NCBI RefSeq assembly: GCF_018866305.1
Contig: NZ_CP076456.1
Coordinates: 1,178,001-1,242,000 of the forward strand
Direction of reading: 5' to 3'
Length of the DNA stretch: 64,000 nt
Source: Arthrobacter sunyaminii
Lineage (GTDB): Bacteria > Actinomycetota > Actinomycetes > Actinomycetales > Micrococcaceae
Positions 40,020-47,002 of the stretch are shown in pieces (the stretch's first letter is position 1; each line of letters opens with the position of its first letter). Below the pieces are notes generated by a model. It was not told where the DNA came from. It saw nothing but the letters and a program-made list of their open reading frames with translations, and did no database searches. The position numbers and the translations under genes were made by a program.

Positions 40020-40694
40020 TCAGTAGTCCGACGCGGCGTTCCCACCCTTAACAATAGCGATACCGGAGCTCGCTCCGATACGCGTGGCACCGGCGTCGAT
40101 CATTGCCTGCGCATCTTCGCGCGAACGGACACCTCCCGAAGCCTTGACCCCGAGGTCCGGTCCAACGGTCTTGCGCATGAGGGCAACGTCCTCCACGGTG
40201 GCTCCGCCGCCGTTGAATCCGGTGGACGTTTTCACGAAATCCGCTCCGGCTTCCACTGCTGCCTCGCAGGCCAGGACCTTCTGCTCGTCGGTGAGCAGCG
40301 CCGTTTCAATGATGACCTTCAGGATGCCGTTGCCGGTGTGAACCTCGTCGGCCACGGCGGCAATGTCGCGGACCAGGGCGTCCCGGTCTCCGCGGCGGGC
40401 GGCGGCGATGTCGATGACCATGTCAATCTCGTCAGCGCCGTCCTGGAGTGCACCCCGGGCTTCGAACACCTTCACTTCGGTGGTGGTGGCGCCCAGCGGG
40501 AAGCCGATGACCGAGCAGGTCAGGACGCCGCTGCCCTTGAGCGCGGTGCGAACGGTGCCGACCCACAGCGGGTTGACGCAAACGGACTTGAAACCGTATT
40601 CGGCGGCTTCGGCGCAGACTTTTAGGATGTCCTCACGGCTCGCCTCGGGTTTGAGGAGCGTGTGGTCAATGTACGAGGCAATGGCTGTAGACAT
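40020..40694 (-). CDS. deoC: Deoxyribose-phosphate aldolase
   Basis: Cleaves 2-deoxyribose-5-phosphate to glyceraldehyde-3-phosphate and acetaldehyde in nucleoside catabolism. About 224 residues from ATG 40694 (a further ATG at 40703 is possible). Class I aldolase motifs: [26 protein letters not shown], and the Schiff-base Lys in DFVKTSTGF, followed by GVKASGGVR. With the phosphosugar mutase at 44398 and purine nucleoside phosphorylase at 46202 it forms a nucleoside salvage set, interrupted by the accessory block at 40.7-44.4 kb. Confidence 0.93.
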
Positions 40695-40742
40695 GCCAAC
40701 CATCTTGCCACAGGAGGGGTGCCGTTGGGCCCTGGAAAGACT

Positions 40743-40780
40743 ATGGCCGGGTAAACGTCTTTCGACGCTGACCCGGCCAT
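40743..40780. terminator. Hairpin isolating the small peptide gene from deoC
   Basis: ATGGCCGGGT/ACCCGGCCAT arms (10 bp) continue past a small internal loop into CGTC/GACG. A T-rich stretch follows on the plus strand. It lies 8 nt past the stop of the secreted peptide gene and 48 bp before deoC, so the peptide gene has its own transcript. Confidence 0.75.
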
Positions 40781-40788
40781 TTTGTTAC

Positions 40789-40932
40789 CTACGGGAAAAT
40801 GATGGGAAACATCGTCGTCAGCGGATTTACTACAGACGCTCCCAGGCTGAGTGTTGCTGCCGACGCGGGTGCTGCTGCGCCAGCGACGGCGATTGTGGTG
40901 GCAAGAAGCAGAGCGGATGCCAGTTTTTTCAT
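40789..40932 (-). CDS. Short secreted peptide (candidate pheromone precursor)
   Basis: 47 residues from ATG 40932, with a strong GGAGG 5 nt upstream. A clear Sec signal peptide (MKKLASALLLATTIAVAGAA) ends with an APASA-A site, leaving about 21-22 mature residues: ATLSLGASVVNPLTTMFPII plus FP. The mature part is hydrophobic with no Cys. It is divergent from a TPR-only protein gene and closed by its own terminator. This is the arrangement of RRNPP pheromone precursors, whose active form is a C-terminal 5-8 residue peptide. The coding call is good; the signalling role is inference. Confidence 0.72.
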   Translation of the reverse strand: MKKLASALLLATTIAVAGAAAPASAATLSLGASVVNPLTTMFPIIFP

Positions 40933-41137
40933 TGAGTCCTCCAAGTAGTAAATAACGACAAAGTAAAGTCTCGCTGAAGCAAGCGAATAAATCGATAGGT
41001 TGGAGGTAAAATCTATGGTCATTTTTTTCAGTATCCAAAGTGTAAGATTCGATGCACTTCAGTTTTATGACGGGGACGCTCGCGGCGGCCCGCCTGGAGT
41101 ACTGTAGGCGGAACAAGTCTTGTAATGAGCGAGTTAG

Positions 41138-42181
41138 GTGCAGTGGGAATTGGACAACTCTGTCGATCAAATGCTGAACGAGTATCGGGCACGCCTGCAC
41201 TGGGACCGCCGCGAGTATAAGGCGGCCTTAGGCCATGCAACGGCGGCGGCCGGTGAAGCCCTCATTAAAGAGGACATCACCGGGTATTGGCGCATGACAC
41301 TCCTGCTGGCGGAATGCCAAATGGAGCTGGGTCTGATTCAGGAATTCGCTACGAGCACCAAGGCACTGTCGGAAAGCTCGGCGCTGCAAGGTGATCAGGC
41401 AATGGTTGCGCGGGCCAAAGCCCTGTATTCAAGAGCGTTGGAGAGCTTGGGGCACATAGGCGAGTCCCTTGTCGTCGCTCAAGAAGCAGCGGCAATAGAA
41501 CTCAATGAACCTTCGGACACCGTGGACGAAATCGAGATGCTGCATGGTCTCGTCGCCGCTCTCGCTGAGAGCGACAAAGCCAGCGAGGCCTGGCCACACG
41601 CACTGAGGCTTGCAGCCCTGGCCGGGCAGCAGGACGATCAACATATCGCCGGCAAGGCGTACTGGGCAGTTGGCAACGTTGCGTTCCTGAACGGTGACGC
41701 TGAGAACGGTATTCGATACCATAAACTGGCCGCTGAAAATCTCGCCCCGGATAATGACGTGAATACGTGGGCATTTTTCAACAAAGGGTCCGCCCAAGCG
41801 CGTCTCTCAGCAGGCATAGCGGACCAAGAAACCCTCGAATGCATTGAACGGGCTGAGCTGGCCAACTCAGTTACCGGCGGAAGCCCACTCATGGAACTGG
41901 AGCTTTCCACTGCCCGGGCACAGTGGCTCGTATCCAACAACGGTGCTGAGGAAGCCGTGGCCTGCGTTCAGCAAATACTTGACCAGCGGGAACTTCTGCC
42001 CGAACATTTGCTTGCGGACGTGGAATACGTTGCAGCCCTTGCTTTGCATGAGCTCGGGCGGAATGATGAAGCCTTGGCTGCAGCGGTTCATTCCGAAAAA
42101 GTCTTCATTGCGCACGGTGGCCGACGCCGGGCGCTGGAGGTCCGCAGCATCATTGACAGCATTAATGCCGGCAGTCACTGA
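41138..42181 (+). CDS. TPR-repeat protein (RRNPP-receptor-like, no HTH)
   Basis: 347 residues from GTG 41138; in-frame stops just upstream rule out a longer protein in this frame. The whole chain is helical with TPR-like pairs: EYRARLHWDRREYKAALGHA, AKALYSRALESLGHIGESL, AYWAVGNVAFLNGDAENGIR and VAALALHELGRNDEALAA. No helix-turn-helix, signal peptide or membrane segment. TPR-only receptors such as Rap bind short peptides and partner proteins rather than DNA. A 205-bp divergent gap links it to the secreted peptide gene. It could instead be a generic scaffold or the remnant of a larger HTH-TPR regulator. Confidence 0.7.
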   Translation: MQWELDNSVDQMLNEYRARLHWDRREYKAALGHATAAAGEALIKEDITGYWRMTLLLAECQMELGLIQEFATSTKALSESSALQGDQAMVARAKALYSRALESLGHIGESLVVAQEAAAIELNEPSDTVDEIEMLHGLVAALAESDKASEAWPHALRLAALAGQQDDQHIAGKAYWAVGNVAFLNGDAENGIRYHKLAAENLAPDNDVNTWAFFNKGSAQARLSAGIADQETLECIERAELANSVTGGSPLMELELSTARAQWLVSNNGAEEAVACVQQILDQRELLPEHLLADVEYVAALALHELGRNDEALAAAVHSEKVFIAHGGRRRALEVRSIIDSINAGSH

Positions 42182-42290: not shown

Positions 42291-42770
42291 ATGACACAGC
42301 AACGATCGGTCGAAAGAACAGTCTGGAATGACTGTCCGGATGAGCGTTCTTCAGGCACAGGTACGGGCGCGGGGGTTTACGGGTGCGGATGTGCTCCGGC
42401 GCCGGACAAAGGGCCGAGGGTGGACGTGTCCATGGCGCCCGACGGACACATTGTGCTGGTCCTCCCGCCCGGCGAAGTAGTCACCGGAACCATGGCCGCA
42501 GCGGCGAATGACGAAGTGGGGCGGCTGGCAGGCATCAGGAAGATGCCGATGCTGCTGGTCCTGACCGGCGTTGAAGCTGTCACCAGGAGTGCGCGCACTG
42601 TGTTCAGCAGCGCTCAGTCGCTGGCCGCCGTCGCGGTTCTCGGCATGACGCCCGTGGACCGTGTCATCGCCAACTTCCTCCTGGGCGGAACCGTTCAGCC
42701 CTGCCCCACCCGCTACTTCTCCTCTGAACAGGAAGCCCTGGGCTGGCTGAAGAGGAAAAGCGTTGCCTGA
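42291..42770 (+). CDS. DUF7793/STAS-like protein coupled to a c-di-GMP enzyme
   Basis: 159 residues. The N-terminal 45 residues are low-complexity and Cys/Gly-rich (GVYGCGCAPAPDKG). The remaining domain, from about DVSMAPDGHIVLVLPPGE through KMPMLLVLTGVEAVTRSAR to RYFSSEQEALGWLKR, has the alternating strand-helix order of the STAS/SpoIIAA-like DUF7793 family. GGGGGAAGC precedes ATG 42291. The stop overlaps the TTG start of the GGDEF-EAL gene, so the proteins are made together; it may be a small regulatory partner. Family name assigned from memory. Confidence 0.6.
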   Translation: MTQQRSVERTVWNDCPDERSSGTGTGAGVYGCGCAPAPDKGPRVDVSMAPDGHIVLVLPPGEVVTGTMAAAANDEVGRLAGIRKMPMLLVLTGVEAVTRSARTVFSSAQSLAAVAVLGMTPVDRVIANFLLGGTVQPCPTRYFSSEQEALGWLKRKSVA

Positions 42771-44385
42771 TGCCCGGCGCGGGACACCGGCTGCGCCGGA
42801 CATCGCACCGGAAACGCCGCAAGTCGCCCGCCGTCCGCCGGGAGAAGACGACCGCCTGAGTCAAGTTGTCGAAGGCATCATCCGAATAGCGTCAGGCGAT
42901 CTCAGCACGCACATCCCCGTCTCCAAGGCCCGGGACCAGGTGGACGCCGTCATCACGGGCATCAACCTGCTGGCCGATGAACTCAACGAGGTCTACGCCG
43001 CTTTTGAAGAGCGGGTGGAAACACGCACCCGCGAGCTGCGCGAAGCACACCTGACCATGCAGAAGATGGCTATGACCGATCCGCTCACAGGCATCGGCAA
43101 TCGCTCATCCCTGCACGAGGCGCTGACTGCTGCGGTCGCCAACCGCAGGGACGGCCAGCCGGGGCCGGCCGTCCTCCTGCTTGACCTGGACGGTTTCAAG
43201 GAGGTCAATGACAGTCTGGGGCATGATTCCGGGGACCTGGTACTGATCGAGATTGCCGCACGGCTGGTGGCGGCGGCCGGCCCCGGCAGCGTTGTGGCAC
43301 GCCTGGGCGGGGATGAGTTTGCCGTGCTGCTGCCGGTCTCCACCGTCCAGCAGGCACGCGGCACAGCGCTGAAAATCATGGACTCCCTCAAGCAGCGCAT
43401 CCCGTTGGAGGACATCGATGCCTGGACCGGAGCCAGCATCGGGATCCATCTGGCGCAGCCCCGGGAAGACGCCAGTGCCATCATGCTGCGTGCGGACACT
43501 GCCATGTATGCGGCCAAGGAGGACGTTCACCGGCGGATCAAAGTGTTTGAGCCGGTGATGCTGTACCGCAGGCAGCTGCGCCGCCAAACAGCGCGCGAGC
43601 TTCGCCAGGCCGTTTCGAACGGTGAGCTGTTCCTGGAATACCAGCCCGTGGTGGAGTTGCAGAGCGGCCGGCTGCAGGGCGTTGAAGCGTTGGTGCGGTG
43701 GAACCATCCCAGCCGCGGTTTGGTGATGCCGGATGACTTCATCCCGCTGGCCGAAGAGACGGGGCTGATTGTCGGAATCGGCCGCTGGGTGCTGCACACC
43801 GCGCTGCAGCAGCTTGCACAGTGGCGCCGGCTGCTGCCCGCCGATAGGAAATTCCTGCTCCGGGTCAATCTGGCGGCCTCGGAACTGCAGAGCATGGATC
43901 TGGTGGACTTCGTGCGCGGCTCCCTGCGCAAAACGGGAGCTGAACCCGGGGAACTGGTCCTCGAGATTACCGAAAGCGCTCTTCTCTCGGGCGGTGACGT
44001 GGAGACCTACTCGCTGCGCTCCCTGCAGGCGCTGGGCGTTGGCCTGGAAATCGATGACTTCGGCACCGGCTATTCCTCCATCAGCTACCTGCACCGGCTG
44101 CCGGTGGACACGGTCAAGGTGGACCGGTCACTGATTTCGGACATGGCCGACGACGACGGCCAGCTGAGGTTTGTGGCGGCGGTCCACAACCTGATCCGTG
44201 CCGCCGGCATGGATGCCGTCTTTGAAGGCATTGAAACCGCCAAGCAGGCACGGCAGCTGCAGGAGATGGGTTGCTGCTGCGGGCAGGGCTACTACTTCAG
44301 CAGGCCGCTTCCCGCGGTCCAGGTGACCGACCTGCTGCGGGAGGGGCGCACCCTCCCGCAGGCCGTCGTCGTTCTTCCCGGGTAA
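42763..44385 (+). CDS. GGDEF-EAL cyclic di-GMP enzyme, no membrane segment
   Basis: 540 residues from TTG 42763 (AGAGGA upstream, 8-bp overlap with the previous gene). An N-terminal HAMP-like helix pair (LSQVVEGIIRIASGDLSTHI) and coiled coil lead to GGDEF (LGGDEFAVLLP, about 182), then EAL (GVEALVRWNHP, about 307). EAL catalytic residues are kept: NLAASEL, DDFGTGYSS, VKVDRS, FEGIETAKQ, GQGYYFSRP. Both domains look active, so it may make and degrade c-di-GMP. No RxxD inhibitory site precedes GGDEF. No transmembrane part despite the HAMP-like start, so input probably comes from a partner protein. Confidence 0.87.
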   Translation: MPDARRGTPAAPDIAPETPQVARRPPGEDDRLSQVVEGIIRIASGDLSTHIPVSKARDQVDAVITGINLLADELNEVYAAFEERVETRTRELREAHLTMQKMAMTDPLTGIGNRSSLHEALTAAVANRRDGQPGPAVLLLDLDGFKEVNDSLGHDSGDLVLIEIAARLVAAAGPGSVVARLGGDEFAVLLPVSTVQQARGTALKIMDSLKQRIPLEDIDAWTGASIGIHLAQPREDASAIMLRADTAMYAAKEDVHRRIKVFEPVMLYRRQLRRQTARELRQAVSNGELFLEYQPVVELQSGRLQGVEALVRWNHPSRGLVMPDDFIPLAEETGLIVGIGRWVLHTALQQLAQWRRLLPADRKFLLRVNLAASELQSMDLVDFVRGSLRKTGAEPGELVLEITESALLSGGDVETYSLRSLQALGVGLEIDDFGTGYSSISYLHRLPVDTVKVDRSLISDMADDDGQLRFVAAVHNLIRAAGMDAVFEGIETAKQARQLQEMGCCCGQGYYFSRPLPAVQVTDLLREGRTLPQAVVVLPG

Positions 44386-44397
44386 CTCCTGCCGGCG

Positions 44398-46158
44398 TTA
44401 CAGTCCCAGAGCGGCGTTCACGTCGGCGAGCACCGCATCAAGCCGGGCGCGGCCCTGTTCGCGGGCCGCCGGAAGGTCCGCTGCGGATTCCACCGGCACA
44501 ATCACCTCGAGGTAGCACTTGAGCTTGGGCTCGGTGCCGGAGGGGCGGATGATCACCCGGGTGCCGTCAGCCGTGAGGTACTTCAATCCGTCGGTGGGCG
44601 GCAGCTCGGCGCTTCCCTCGGCCAGGTCCACGGCGGATTCCACGGGGGAGCCGCCCAGGGACACAGGAGCCTGGGCACGCAGCCGCGCCATCATCTCGCC
44701 CAGCAGGCCCAGATCGGAAACCCGGATGGAGAGCTGGTCGGTCAGGTGCAGCCCGTGCTCCAGGGCCAGGTCATCGAGTTCATCGAAGAACGTCCGCCCC
44801 TGCATCTTCAGGGCAGCAGCCATTTCAGCCACCAGGAGTCCGGCGGAAATGCCGTCCTTGTCGCGGACCAGGCCCGGCGCCACACAGTAGCCCAGGGCTT
44901 CCTCATAGCCGTAGGTCAGGTGGGGCACACGGGAGATCCACTTGAAGCCGGTGAGGGTCTCAACGTGGGCAAAGCCGGCAGCTTCGGCAACGCGCGCCAG
45001 CAGGCGTGAGGAGACAATCGAGTTCGCGAAAACGACGCCCTTGCGCGTCTTCTCCCCGCGGACCTTCCAGTGCCCGGAGGTGATGCGGCGGGTCAGATGC
45101 CGGCCCAGCAGGGCGCCCACTTCATCGCCGCGGAGCATCCGCCACTCGCCGTCGGCCGGGTTGAGAGCCGCCACGGCAACGCGGTCGGCGTCGGGATCAT
45201 TGGCGATGACCAGGTCGGCGTTGTGCTCGACGGCGGTTTCCAGTGCCAGGTCAAGCGCGCCGGGTTCCTCCGGGTTGGGGAAGGCCACGGTGGGGAAGTC
45301 CGGGTCCGGCTGGGCCTGGGCAGCCACCGGAATGACCTTGCGGAAACCGGCGTCCTTCAGCACGGACTTCATGGTTTCCCCGCCCACGCCGTGCAGCGAG
45401 GTCAGGACAATCTTCAGATCCCGTTCCGGGAACCGTTCGCGCGATGCCAGCCGGTCCACGGCGTTGATGTAGTCCGCCACGATGGACTCGGACACGTCGG
45501 TCCAGCCTTCCGGGGCAATCTCAATGCTCTTCAGCGGCACGCTGTAGTCGATGCGGGCGGCAATTTCAGCGTCGTACGGCGAGACAATCTGCGCACCCTT
45601 GCCCGGGCCCTTCACCGTCCGCCCGCCTAGGTACACCTTGTAGCCGTTGTCCGCCGCCGGATTGTGGCTGGCGGTGACCATCACACCGGCGTCGGTGTCC
45701 AGGGCACGGACCGCGTAGGCGAGCACCGGCGTCGGAAGCGTGCAGGGGAGCAGGAAGGTTTCGATGCCGGCGGCAGCGAACACGGCCGCCGTCTCCAGCG
45801 CGAAGGCGCGTGACTTGTGCCGGGCGTCGTAGCCGATCACTGCACTGGGGGTGTACTTGTCACCGGCCGTGTCCTGCAGGAACGAGGCGATGCCGGCGGC
45901 CGTGCGGCGCACCACCGCACGGTTCATCCGGCGGGGTCCGGCGCCCAATGCAGCGCGCAGGCCGGCCGTGCCGAATTCCAGCGTGCCGGCAAACCGGTCC
46001 GCCAGCTCTTCCGCGGCAGCTGCTGCTGCGGAAGCATCGGCGGACAGCTCCGCGAGCAGCCCCCGCAGCTCGGCCGCTGTTCCGGAATCGGGGTCTTCAT
46101 CCGCCCAGCTCTTGGCGGCGGTCACGAGCTCGTTCAGCTCGGTGGGATTCAACGTCAT
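44398..46158 (-). CDS. Phospho-sugar mutase (phosphoglucomutase/phosphopentomutase family)
   Basis: 586 residues from ATG 46158. Alpha-D-phosphohexomutase superfamily: phosphoserine loop GVMVTASHNP, metal-binding NDPDADRVAV, sugar loop GYEEALGYCV and phosphate-binding RPSGTEPKLKCY. It lies 43 bp after the purine nucleoside phosphorylase gene, which suggests it handles ribose-1-phosphate (PGM2-like), while a glucose-1-phosphate role feeding UDP-glucose and Ugd is also possible. Length fits the PGM2-type forms. Confidence 0.9.
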   Translation of the reverse strand: MTLNPTELNELVTAAKSWADEDPDSGTAAELRGLLAELSADASAAAAAAEELADRFAGTLEFGTAGLRAALGAGPRRMNRAVVRRTAAGIASFLQDTAGDKYTPSAVIGYDARHKSRAFALETAAVFAAAGIETFLLPCTLPTPVLAYAVRALDTDAGVMVTASHNPAADNGYKVYLGGRTVKGPGKGAQIVSPYDAEIAARIDYSVPLKSIEIAPEGWTDVSESIVADYINAVDRLASRERFPERDLKIVLTSLHGVGGETMKSVLKDAGFRKVIPVAAQAQPDPDFPTVAFPNPEEPGALDLALETAVEHNADLVIANDPDADRVAVAALNPADGEWRMLRGDEVGALLGRHLTRRITSGHWKVRGEKTRKGVVFANSIVSSRLLARVAEAAGFAHVETLTGFKWISRVPHLTYGYEEALGYCVAPGLVRDKDGISAGLLVAEMAAALKMQGRTFFDELDDLALEHGLHLTDQLSIRVSDLGLLGEMMARLRAQAPVSLGGSPVESAVDLAEGSAELPPTDGLKYLTADGTRVIIRPSGTEPKLKCYLEVIVPVESAADLPAAREQGRARLDAVLADVNAALGL

Positions 46159-46201
46159 GGGATGTACCTGCGGATCGGGGATAGGAGTTAAGCGGCGGCC
46201 G

Positions 46202-47002
46202 TTAGAGCTTGCCGATGATGTCAGCCAGCAGCCGGGAAATCCGGGGGCCTGCAGCGGCTCCGGCTTCCAGGACCTCGGTGTGGCTGAGCGGCTCCGGGCT
46301 GATGCCGGCGGCCAGGTTGGTGACCAGCGAGATGCCGAACACCTCCATGCCGGCGTGCCGGGCGGCGATGGCCTCGAGCGCGGTGGACATGCCCACCAGA
46401 TCTGCGCCGATGGTCTTGGCGTACCGGACTTCGGCGGGCGTCTCGTAATGCGGACCGGTGAACTGGGCGTAGACGCCTTCATCCAGGGACGGGTCCACGG
46501 TGCGGGCCAGCTCGCGCAGGCGGGAGGAGTAGAGGTCCGTCAGGTCCACGAAGGTGGCGCCTTCCAGCGGGGAGGTGGCGGTGAGATTGATGTGGTCGCT
46601 GATCAGAACCGGGGTTCCGGGCTTCCAATCGGGGTTCAGGCCGCCGCAGCCGTTGGTGAGAACCATCACCTTGGCGCCGGCCGCAGCTGCGGTGCGGACT
46701 CCGTGGACGACGGCGCGGACGCCCTTGCCCTCGTAGTAATGGGTGCGTGCGCCGAGAACCAGCGCGCGCTTGCCCGACGGCGTCAGCACGGACCGAATGG
46801 TCCCCACGTGCCCCTGCACAGCGGGGGCGGAAAAGCCCGGGATATCCGTAGCGTTGAGGGTGGCAGTGGTCTCGCCGATCAGTTCGGCGGCCTCACCCCA
46901 GCCGCTGCCGAGGACCAGGGCAATGTCATGGTTGGGCACGCCGGTTTCCTCGGCAATGTACTTGGCGGCCTGCTGGGCTAGTTCAAAAGGATCGTTGCTC
47001 AC
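46202..47002 (-). CDS. Purine-nucleoside phosphorylase
   Basis: 266 residues, trimeric class I PNP. It splits purine nucleosides with phosphate into base and ribose-1-phosphate. Motifs: [10 protein letters not shown] (phosphate loop), GRxHYYEG-like [36 protein letters not shown] and [12 protein letters not shown], then VTNLAAG. GTG start at 47002. Cotranscribed with the phospho-sugar mutase; divergent from the quinone reductase gene across 105 bp. Confidence 0.92.

Follow-up and report, generated by a model that had tools for sequence, protein, structure and literature searches.

A candidate RRNPP-like peptide-receptor pair linked to a GGDEF-EAL gene in Arthrobacter

The DNA under study is a stretch of 64,000 nucleotides from Arthrobacter sunyaminii (assembly GCF_018866305.1, contig NZ_CP076456.1, positions 1,178,001 to 1,242,000; hereafter the window), in which a gene for a small, putatively exported peptide lies divergent from a gene for a protein predicted to consist of tetratricopeptide repeats (TPR). 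A preliminary description had read the two as a signalling pair resembling the RRNPP systems, a reading that gains support from peptide-receptor co-occurrence, peptide conservation and fold alignment. The genome of the strain is a single contig of 3.9 Mb. In window coordinates, the locus comprises the following parts:

40789..40932, minus strand: peptide precursor gene of 47 codons (ATG at 40932-40930, stop at 40791-40789), from sequence and translation
40938..40942, minus strand: Shine-Dalgarno sequence GGAGG of the peptide gene, read off the sequence
41138..42181, plus strand: TPR-only receptor candidate of 347 amino acids with a GTG start, from predicted fold and homologs
42291..42770, plus strand: DUF7793 gene of 159 amino acids between the receptor and GGDEF-EAL genes (Pfam; also a weak, below-cut-off SpoIIAA-like match)
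42763..44385, plus strand: HAMP-GGDEF-EAL gene, the proposed output, with intact motifs (Pfam and motif reading)
40743..40780, minus strand: strong hairpin in the interval between the peptide gene and deoC, a terminator-like stem lacking a clear T-run (folding against shuffles)
40020..40703, minus strand: deoC, the conserved flank of the module (domain matches, neighbourhood comparison)
44398..46482, minus strand: phosphoglucomutase/phosphomannomutase family gene, the downstream flank, also present in three longer relatives (L062, L067 and L068)

To the right of the peptide gene, the divergent TPR gene is thus followed by the DUF7793 gene and then by the HAMP-GGDEF-EAL gene. The coordinates confirm the 47-residue gene with its strong ribosome-binding site (GGAGG at 40942-40938) divergent from the 347-residue TPR gene, as first described. 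The pair had also been placed in an accessory block; this proved wrong, as the block belongs to the core of the genus, where deoC and the TPR, DUF7793 and GGDEF-EAL genes are clustered at 29/29 loci and the peptide gene is present too. A terminator of its own had been assigned to the peptide gene, of which the strong hairpin at 40743-40780 stands (the 96-nucleotide stretch containing it folds at -40.4 kcal/mol, z -4.05, a value equalled by none of 200 shuffles), but not a clear T-run after the stem. In the phosphomannomutase-family reading frame at 44398-46482, about 168 residues precede the first domain, and its start codon has perhaps been called too early.

The precursor, MKKLASALLLATTIAVAGAAAPASAATLSLGASVVNPLTTMFPIIFP (47 residues), has a predicted signal covering approximately residues 1-26 and a mature part ending in TTMFPIIFP; its Sec-type signal and Ala-x-Ala site were assigned by visual inspection with the aid of a hydropathy rule. 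A divergent gene for an MKK-type peptide with W-P or F-P near the C-terminus was found at 29 of the 30 TPR loci compared. The sole exception, G034, is an XRE-type helix-turn-helix (HTH)-TPR relative with a precursor of its own that carries two copies of IGNWPDP, and the remaining 29th genome of the genus, G011, carries the peptide as well (L097). Alignment of 29 peptides revealed replacement of the motif tryptophan by phenylalanine in three. The FPIIFP end emphasized in the preliminary description is present in the focal precursor but represents the form that a wider WP motif takes in one clade; as a general feature it was rejected, W-P being the rule and only 3/106 precursors lacking WP.

How widely does this pairing hold? 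The TPR protein occurs in 29/29 genomes of the genus and in 2/30 others, and a TPR profile recovered relatives in 116/245 genomes of the window's family (17/32 genera). Across the class, the TPR profile A1 matched only 10/296 genomes, and a contig scan with the single TPR protein as query returned one locus only. A profile of the XRE-HTH-TPR proteins matched 112/394 genomes of the class (48/138 genera), many of these matches covering the HTH alone. One 38% identical relative, P0051, is labelled Vibrio cholerae in the public source and most likely represents a mislabelled or contaminated record. From 156 receptor matches we retained 144 genes at 142 loci, excluding nine repeat loci, the partial XRE match L086 (whose peptide is MKRNPWPGRAVTKVGNWPD) and the second pieces of broken genes at L007 and L096; at these last two loci (in G013 and G004, respectively) the match to each receptor gene is split into two pieces that lie in different frames, and the genes are apparently frame-broken. 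The 144 genes are not a random sample, as they combine the loci of the genus, those from profile searches and 60 further places from the family-level profile list.

These 144 receptor genes divide into 58 TPR-only genes and 86 with an XRE HTH. A divergent small open reading frame (ORF) with a WP motif (FP in three) accompanies 56 of the 58 TPR-only genes and 50 of the 86 XRE-HTH-TPR genes. By the hydropathy rule, a signal is present in all 56 ORFs at TPR-only genes, where a secreted peptide adjoins the TPR homologs as the preliminary description had anticipated, and in 34 of the 50 at HTH-TPR genes. An HTH profile moved L132, L191, L192 and L092, whose HTH had been overlooked by the first rule, from the TPR-only to the HTH class; earlier counts were 57/62 and 49/82. 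Of 2880 dinucleotide shuffles, 0.73% contained signal plus motif, 3.3% contained any ORF with a signal, and 22% contained the motif without a signal. Since signal-less motifs are this frequent in shuffles, the control lends no support to the 16 ORFs of the HTH class that lack a signal; 14 of them, at corresponding positions in Arthrobacter, share the ending VG[ND]WPD, and the other two, L179 and L180, do not and may be chance.

Substitution patterns bear on the same question. The ratio of nonsynonymous to synonymous change (pN/pS) was 0.11 for the signal, 0.48 for the linker and 0.22 for the three motif codons, values derived from 16 close pairs that were picked by hand, share genomes and are mutually non-independent. 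The raw changes amounted to 10.3 synonymous and 12.7 other changes in the motif codons, and 121.4 and 155.6 in the linker. A short conserved segment thus lies inside a less conserved precursor (0.22 versus 0.48), and conservation of the peptide ORF, on which the preliminary reading depended, is borne out by ratios well below 1. This is the pattern expected if the gene is translated, has a conserved active part and is under purifying selection. Two other explanations were dropped: a chance ORF is rejected by the shuffle control together with the substitution rates, and a small ORF that matters as DNA only is set aside given the pN/pS of 0.11 in the signal and 0.22 in the motif.

Many precursors contain the motif more than once. 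The number of WP copies ranges from 0 to 8, with at least two (2-8) in 41/106 precursors; in the HTH class, 32 of the 50 precursors found carry 2-8 copies. The unit IGNWPDPM, with units picked by exact sequence, occurs 71 times in 31 DNA versions, and variant copies, IGNLPDPM and IGNWADQ among them, are found as well. This layout is reminiscent of yeast alpha-factor.

The 347-residue protein itself yields no Pfam or NCBIfam match at E 0.1, and we assign it to the TPR proteins from its predicted fold and from the TPR_12 matches of its relatives. The structure model is a 17-helix TPR superhelix (predicted local distance difference test score, pLDDT, 93.3), most of which can be aligned with Rap, AimR and NprR. 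Conservation in at least 95% of 54 sequences singles out 17 polar or aromatic positions, and nine of these sit on helices H9, H11 and H13. A receptor built of TPR repeats with a predicted fold like that of Rap, NprR and AimR corresponds to the RRNPPA architecture. Other TPR proteins match the model equally well or better, and in the Foldseek ranking LGN-type proteins come out on top, with RapF no higher than rank 31. At the sequence level, profile A1 searched against PDB sequences gave RapF at E 0.055 and RapJ at 0.55, both below generic TPR proteins. We use the label RRNPP-like because the architecture is that of RRNPPA systems, yet sequence homology to RRNPP receptors is not clear and binding is a proposal.

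The small ORF might instead encode a secreted or cell-surface mini-protein, for example an antimicrobial or envelope-active one, with the TPR gene coding for an unrelated regulator and divergent by accident. Such a product would suit the Sec-type precursor, nothing indicates re-import, and multi-copy secreted peptides need not be signals; however, the peptide co-occurs with two receptor classes across genera, its short motif changes more slowly than the linker, and the predicted fold of the receptor aligns with Rap and AimR, and we regard this explanation as improbable.

The receptor candidates differ in their neighbours. A GGDEF-EAL gene lies within approximately 7 kb of 58/58 TPR-only genes and of 0/86 HTH genes within the flanks examined. 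Restricted to the first flanks (~1.5 kb), which are alike in length (median ~1.5 kb at TPR-only genes, 1.3-1.5 kb at HTH genes), the counts are 51/58 and 0/86; wider DNA revealed the GGDEF-EAL gene a few kb further at seven TPR-only genes (six loci) and none at six HTH genes. Neither the absence of a nearby deoC nor a changed gene order abolishes the linkage. In the focal gene, Pfam matches to GGDEF (7.1e-37) and EAL (1.9e-72) are accompanied by intact motifs for both domains, and these are the single GGDEF match and the single EAL match of the genome, GGDEF being the standard domain for synthesis of the messenger cyclic di-GMP. All 29 genomes of the genus contain exactly one GGDEF match, located next to the TPR gene by coordinates; EAL was counted in the strain's own genome alone. 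The search for effector domains covered MshEN, with no match in the same genome.

The GGDEF-EAL gene as the output of the system has strong linkage support, as judged from gene neighbourhoods. Linkage is not contact, and the TPR and GGDEF-EAL genes may be adjacent or as much as about 5 kb apart, separated by other genes. The peptide could accordingly be a pheromone for the TPR protein while the receptor acts on another partner, the GGDEF-EAL gene being merely a stable neighbour. Given the linkage of all 58 TPR-only genes and of no HTH gene, its persistence without deoC and its survival of changed gene order, we consider this unlikely, although of the alternatives discussed here it has the best standing.

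At eight loci (L201-L206, L213 and L216), genes for a family-2 glycosyltransferase (PF13632) and for a GH18-CBM5/12 protein were observed near the TPR-only and GGDEF-EAL genes; most loci are too narrow in their flanks to show such neighbours. The PF13632 transferase is absent from four genomes of the window's genus and is on another contig in G035. At these eight loci, the two neighbours hint at a polysaccharide output.

The XRE-HTH-TPR proteins form a sister class whose N-terminal HTH is recognized by Pfam HTH_31 in L107 (1e-11) and, weakly and below cut-off, in the strain's own paralog; the model of the XRE-TPR protein aligns better with LGN-type TPR proteins than with Rap or NprR. At 14 loci of genus g7, a conserved intergenic block separates the divergent precursor and XRE-TPR genes, as expected of a promoter or operator. 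An imperfect palindrome in this block, CAGAGCgtGCTTTG, read by eye (L025, L106, L107, L109-L115 and L119-L122), is an operator candidate. No conserved intergenic block was seen at eight loci of the focal clade, whose species span a greater diversity than do the 14 g7 loci. Outside the window, a 19-codon mini-ORF, MKRNEFRLRAGAAVGNWPD (L063:5914-5973, plus strand), lies divergent from the strain's own XRE-HTH-TPR paralog, and 14 mini-ORFs like it, of 19-23 amino acids, ending in VG[ND]WPD and lacking a signal peptide, occupy the matching position in Arthrobacter genomes. No mini-ORF was recognized at 13 of the XRE-TPR genes in the genus (L076, L080, L081, L084, L085, L087 and L089-L095); inspection of the short ORFs at ten of these revealed an in-frame remnant at L081, ending in AGTWPD without a stop after it, and nothing alike at the other nine. 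These 13 receptors might listen to the peptide of the other locus.

Beyond the family, a divergent exported ORF was found at 42 of 69 XRE-TPR loci (2.8% in shuffles), with [WY]P in 16 (0.43% in shuffles); the 69 are the best-scoring full-length matches plus three others, nine are also among the 144 genes, and two have fewer than 300 bases upstream. All 19 divergent exported ORFs found in family f38 end in CC. Divergent exported peptides with this ending (for example WPGMCC and SPGDFCC) were noted at L239, L241, L243, L247, L248, L252, L253, L256, L258, L259, L262, L263, L265, L266, L268, L274, L275, L279 and L280, and at the further loci L227, L230, L233, L277, L278, L283-L285, L287 and L290. 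In other families of the class, CC-ending peptides possibly represent a second type of pheromone.

The gene pairing, the conservation, the predicted fold likeness and the linkage are computed results; for export, processing, uptake, binding and enzyme control, we infer the following course. The precursor would exit by Sec, and signal peptidase together with other proteases would free, from the C-terminal end, a short peptide around the W/F-P motif. Import of this peptide would fall to an oligopeptide permease, for which 12 SBP_bac_5 proteins in the strain's own genome are candidate binding proteins by their presence only. Inside the cell, the peptide would bind the TPR protein on its concave face. 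As the TPR-only receptor lacks a DNA-binding domain, it is expected to act by protein contact, touching the DUF7793 and GGDEF-EAL proteins much as Rap proteins act by contact, and such contact would shift the synthesis or breakdown of cyclic di-GMP with cell density. The XRE-HTH-TPR proteins with their (G)NWP-type peptides would provide the transcription factor arm. Taken as a whole, this account of an RRNPP-like pair is, in our judgement, probably correct. The same genes and parts would fit an export-import timer, in which a cell responds to the processed peptide that it made itself and does not truly gauge density, a role that has been proposed for some Phr peptides. Sequence cannot separate self-sensing from group sensing and offers nothing against a timer, although multi-copy precursors suggest high output; we give it very little weight, the least of the alternatives.

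Peptide pheromones with intracellular TPR receptors have been described for Bacillota, where Rap proteins act on response regulators through phosphatase or anti-activator activity. When compared to Rap-Phr of the RRNPPA family, the pair described here differs in its actinobacterial host, its W/F-P motif, the lack of clear sequence homology and its linkage to DUF7793 and GGDEF-EAL genes rather than to response regulators. The sister class resembles the HTH-type members PlcR, NprR, Rgg, PrgX and AimR in its N-terminal XRE HTH, its TPR repeats and the often adjacent small peptide gene, but is distinguished by (G)NWP-type peptides, present in 2-8 copies in 32/50. The strict definition of RRNPP_detector, a TPR receptor of 250-500 amino acids with an adjacent small propeptide gene, fits the focal pair in outline (PMC10075063). 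That source states that the survey scanned genomes of Firmicutes and viruses and that Actinomycetota typically signal with enzymatically made small molecules (PMC10075063). In Bacillota, propeptides that contain more than one pheromone copy are known (PMC11343458). Look-ups of the terms Actinobacteria, Arthrobacter and Streptomyces in two further papers gave no match (PMC9765709, PMC12700828). Our search of the open literature, with subscription papers and preprints mostly outside its scope, turned up no description of an actinobacterial system of this kind. New here are the linkage of TPR-only genes to GGDEF-EAL genes (58/58, compared to 0/86 for HTH genes) and the single GGDEF match in 29/29 genomes of the genus.

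Whether actinomycetes possess a broad RRNPP-like peptide language, often written in multi-copy precursors, in which one receptor class acts directly on cyclic di-GMP turnover and places the one GGDEF-EAL enzyme of Arthrobacter under pheromone control, is to our minds an evenly balanced question. If true, a genetically encoded language of linear peptides would be added to a large group of soil bacteria, and the predicted pheromone sequences would be ready for synthesis and assay. The proposed link would lead directly from a peptide signal to cyclic di-GMP, and the single GGDEF match in each of the 29 genomes of the genus would offer a simple setting in which to dissect its control.
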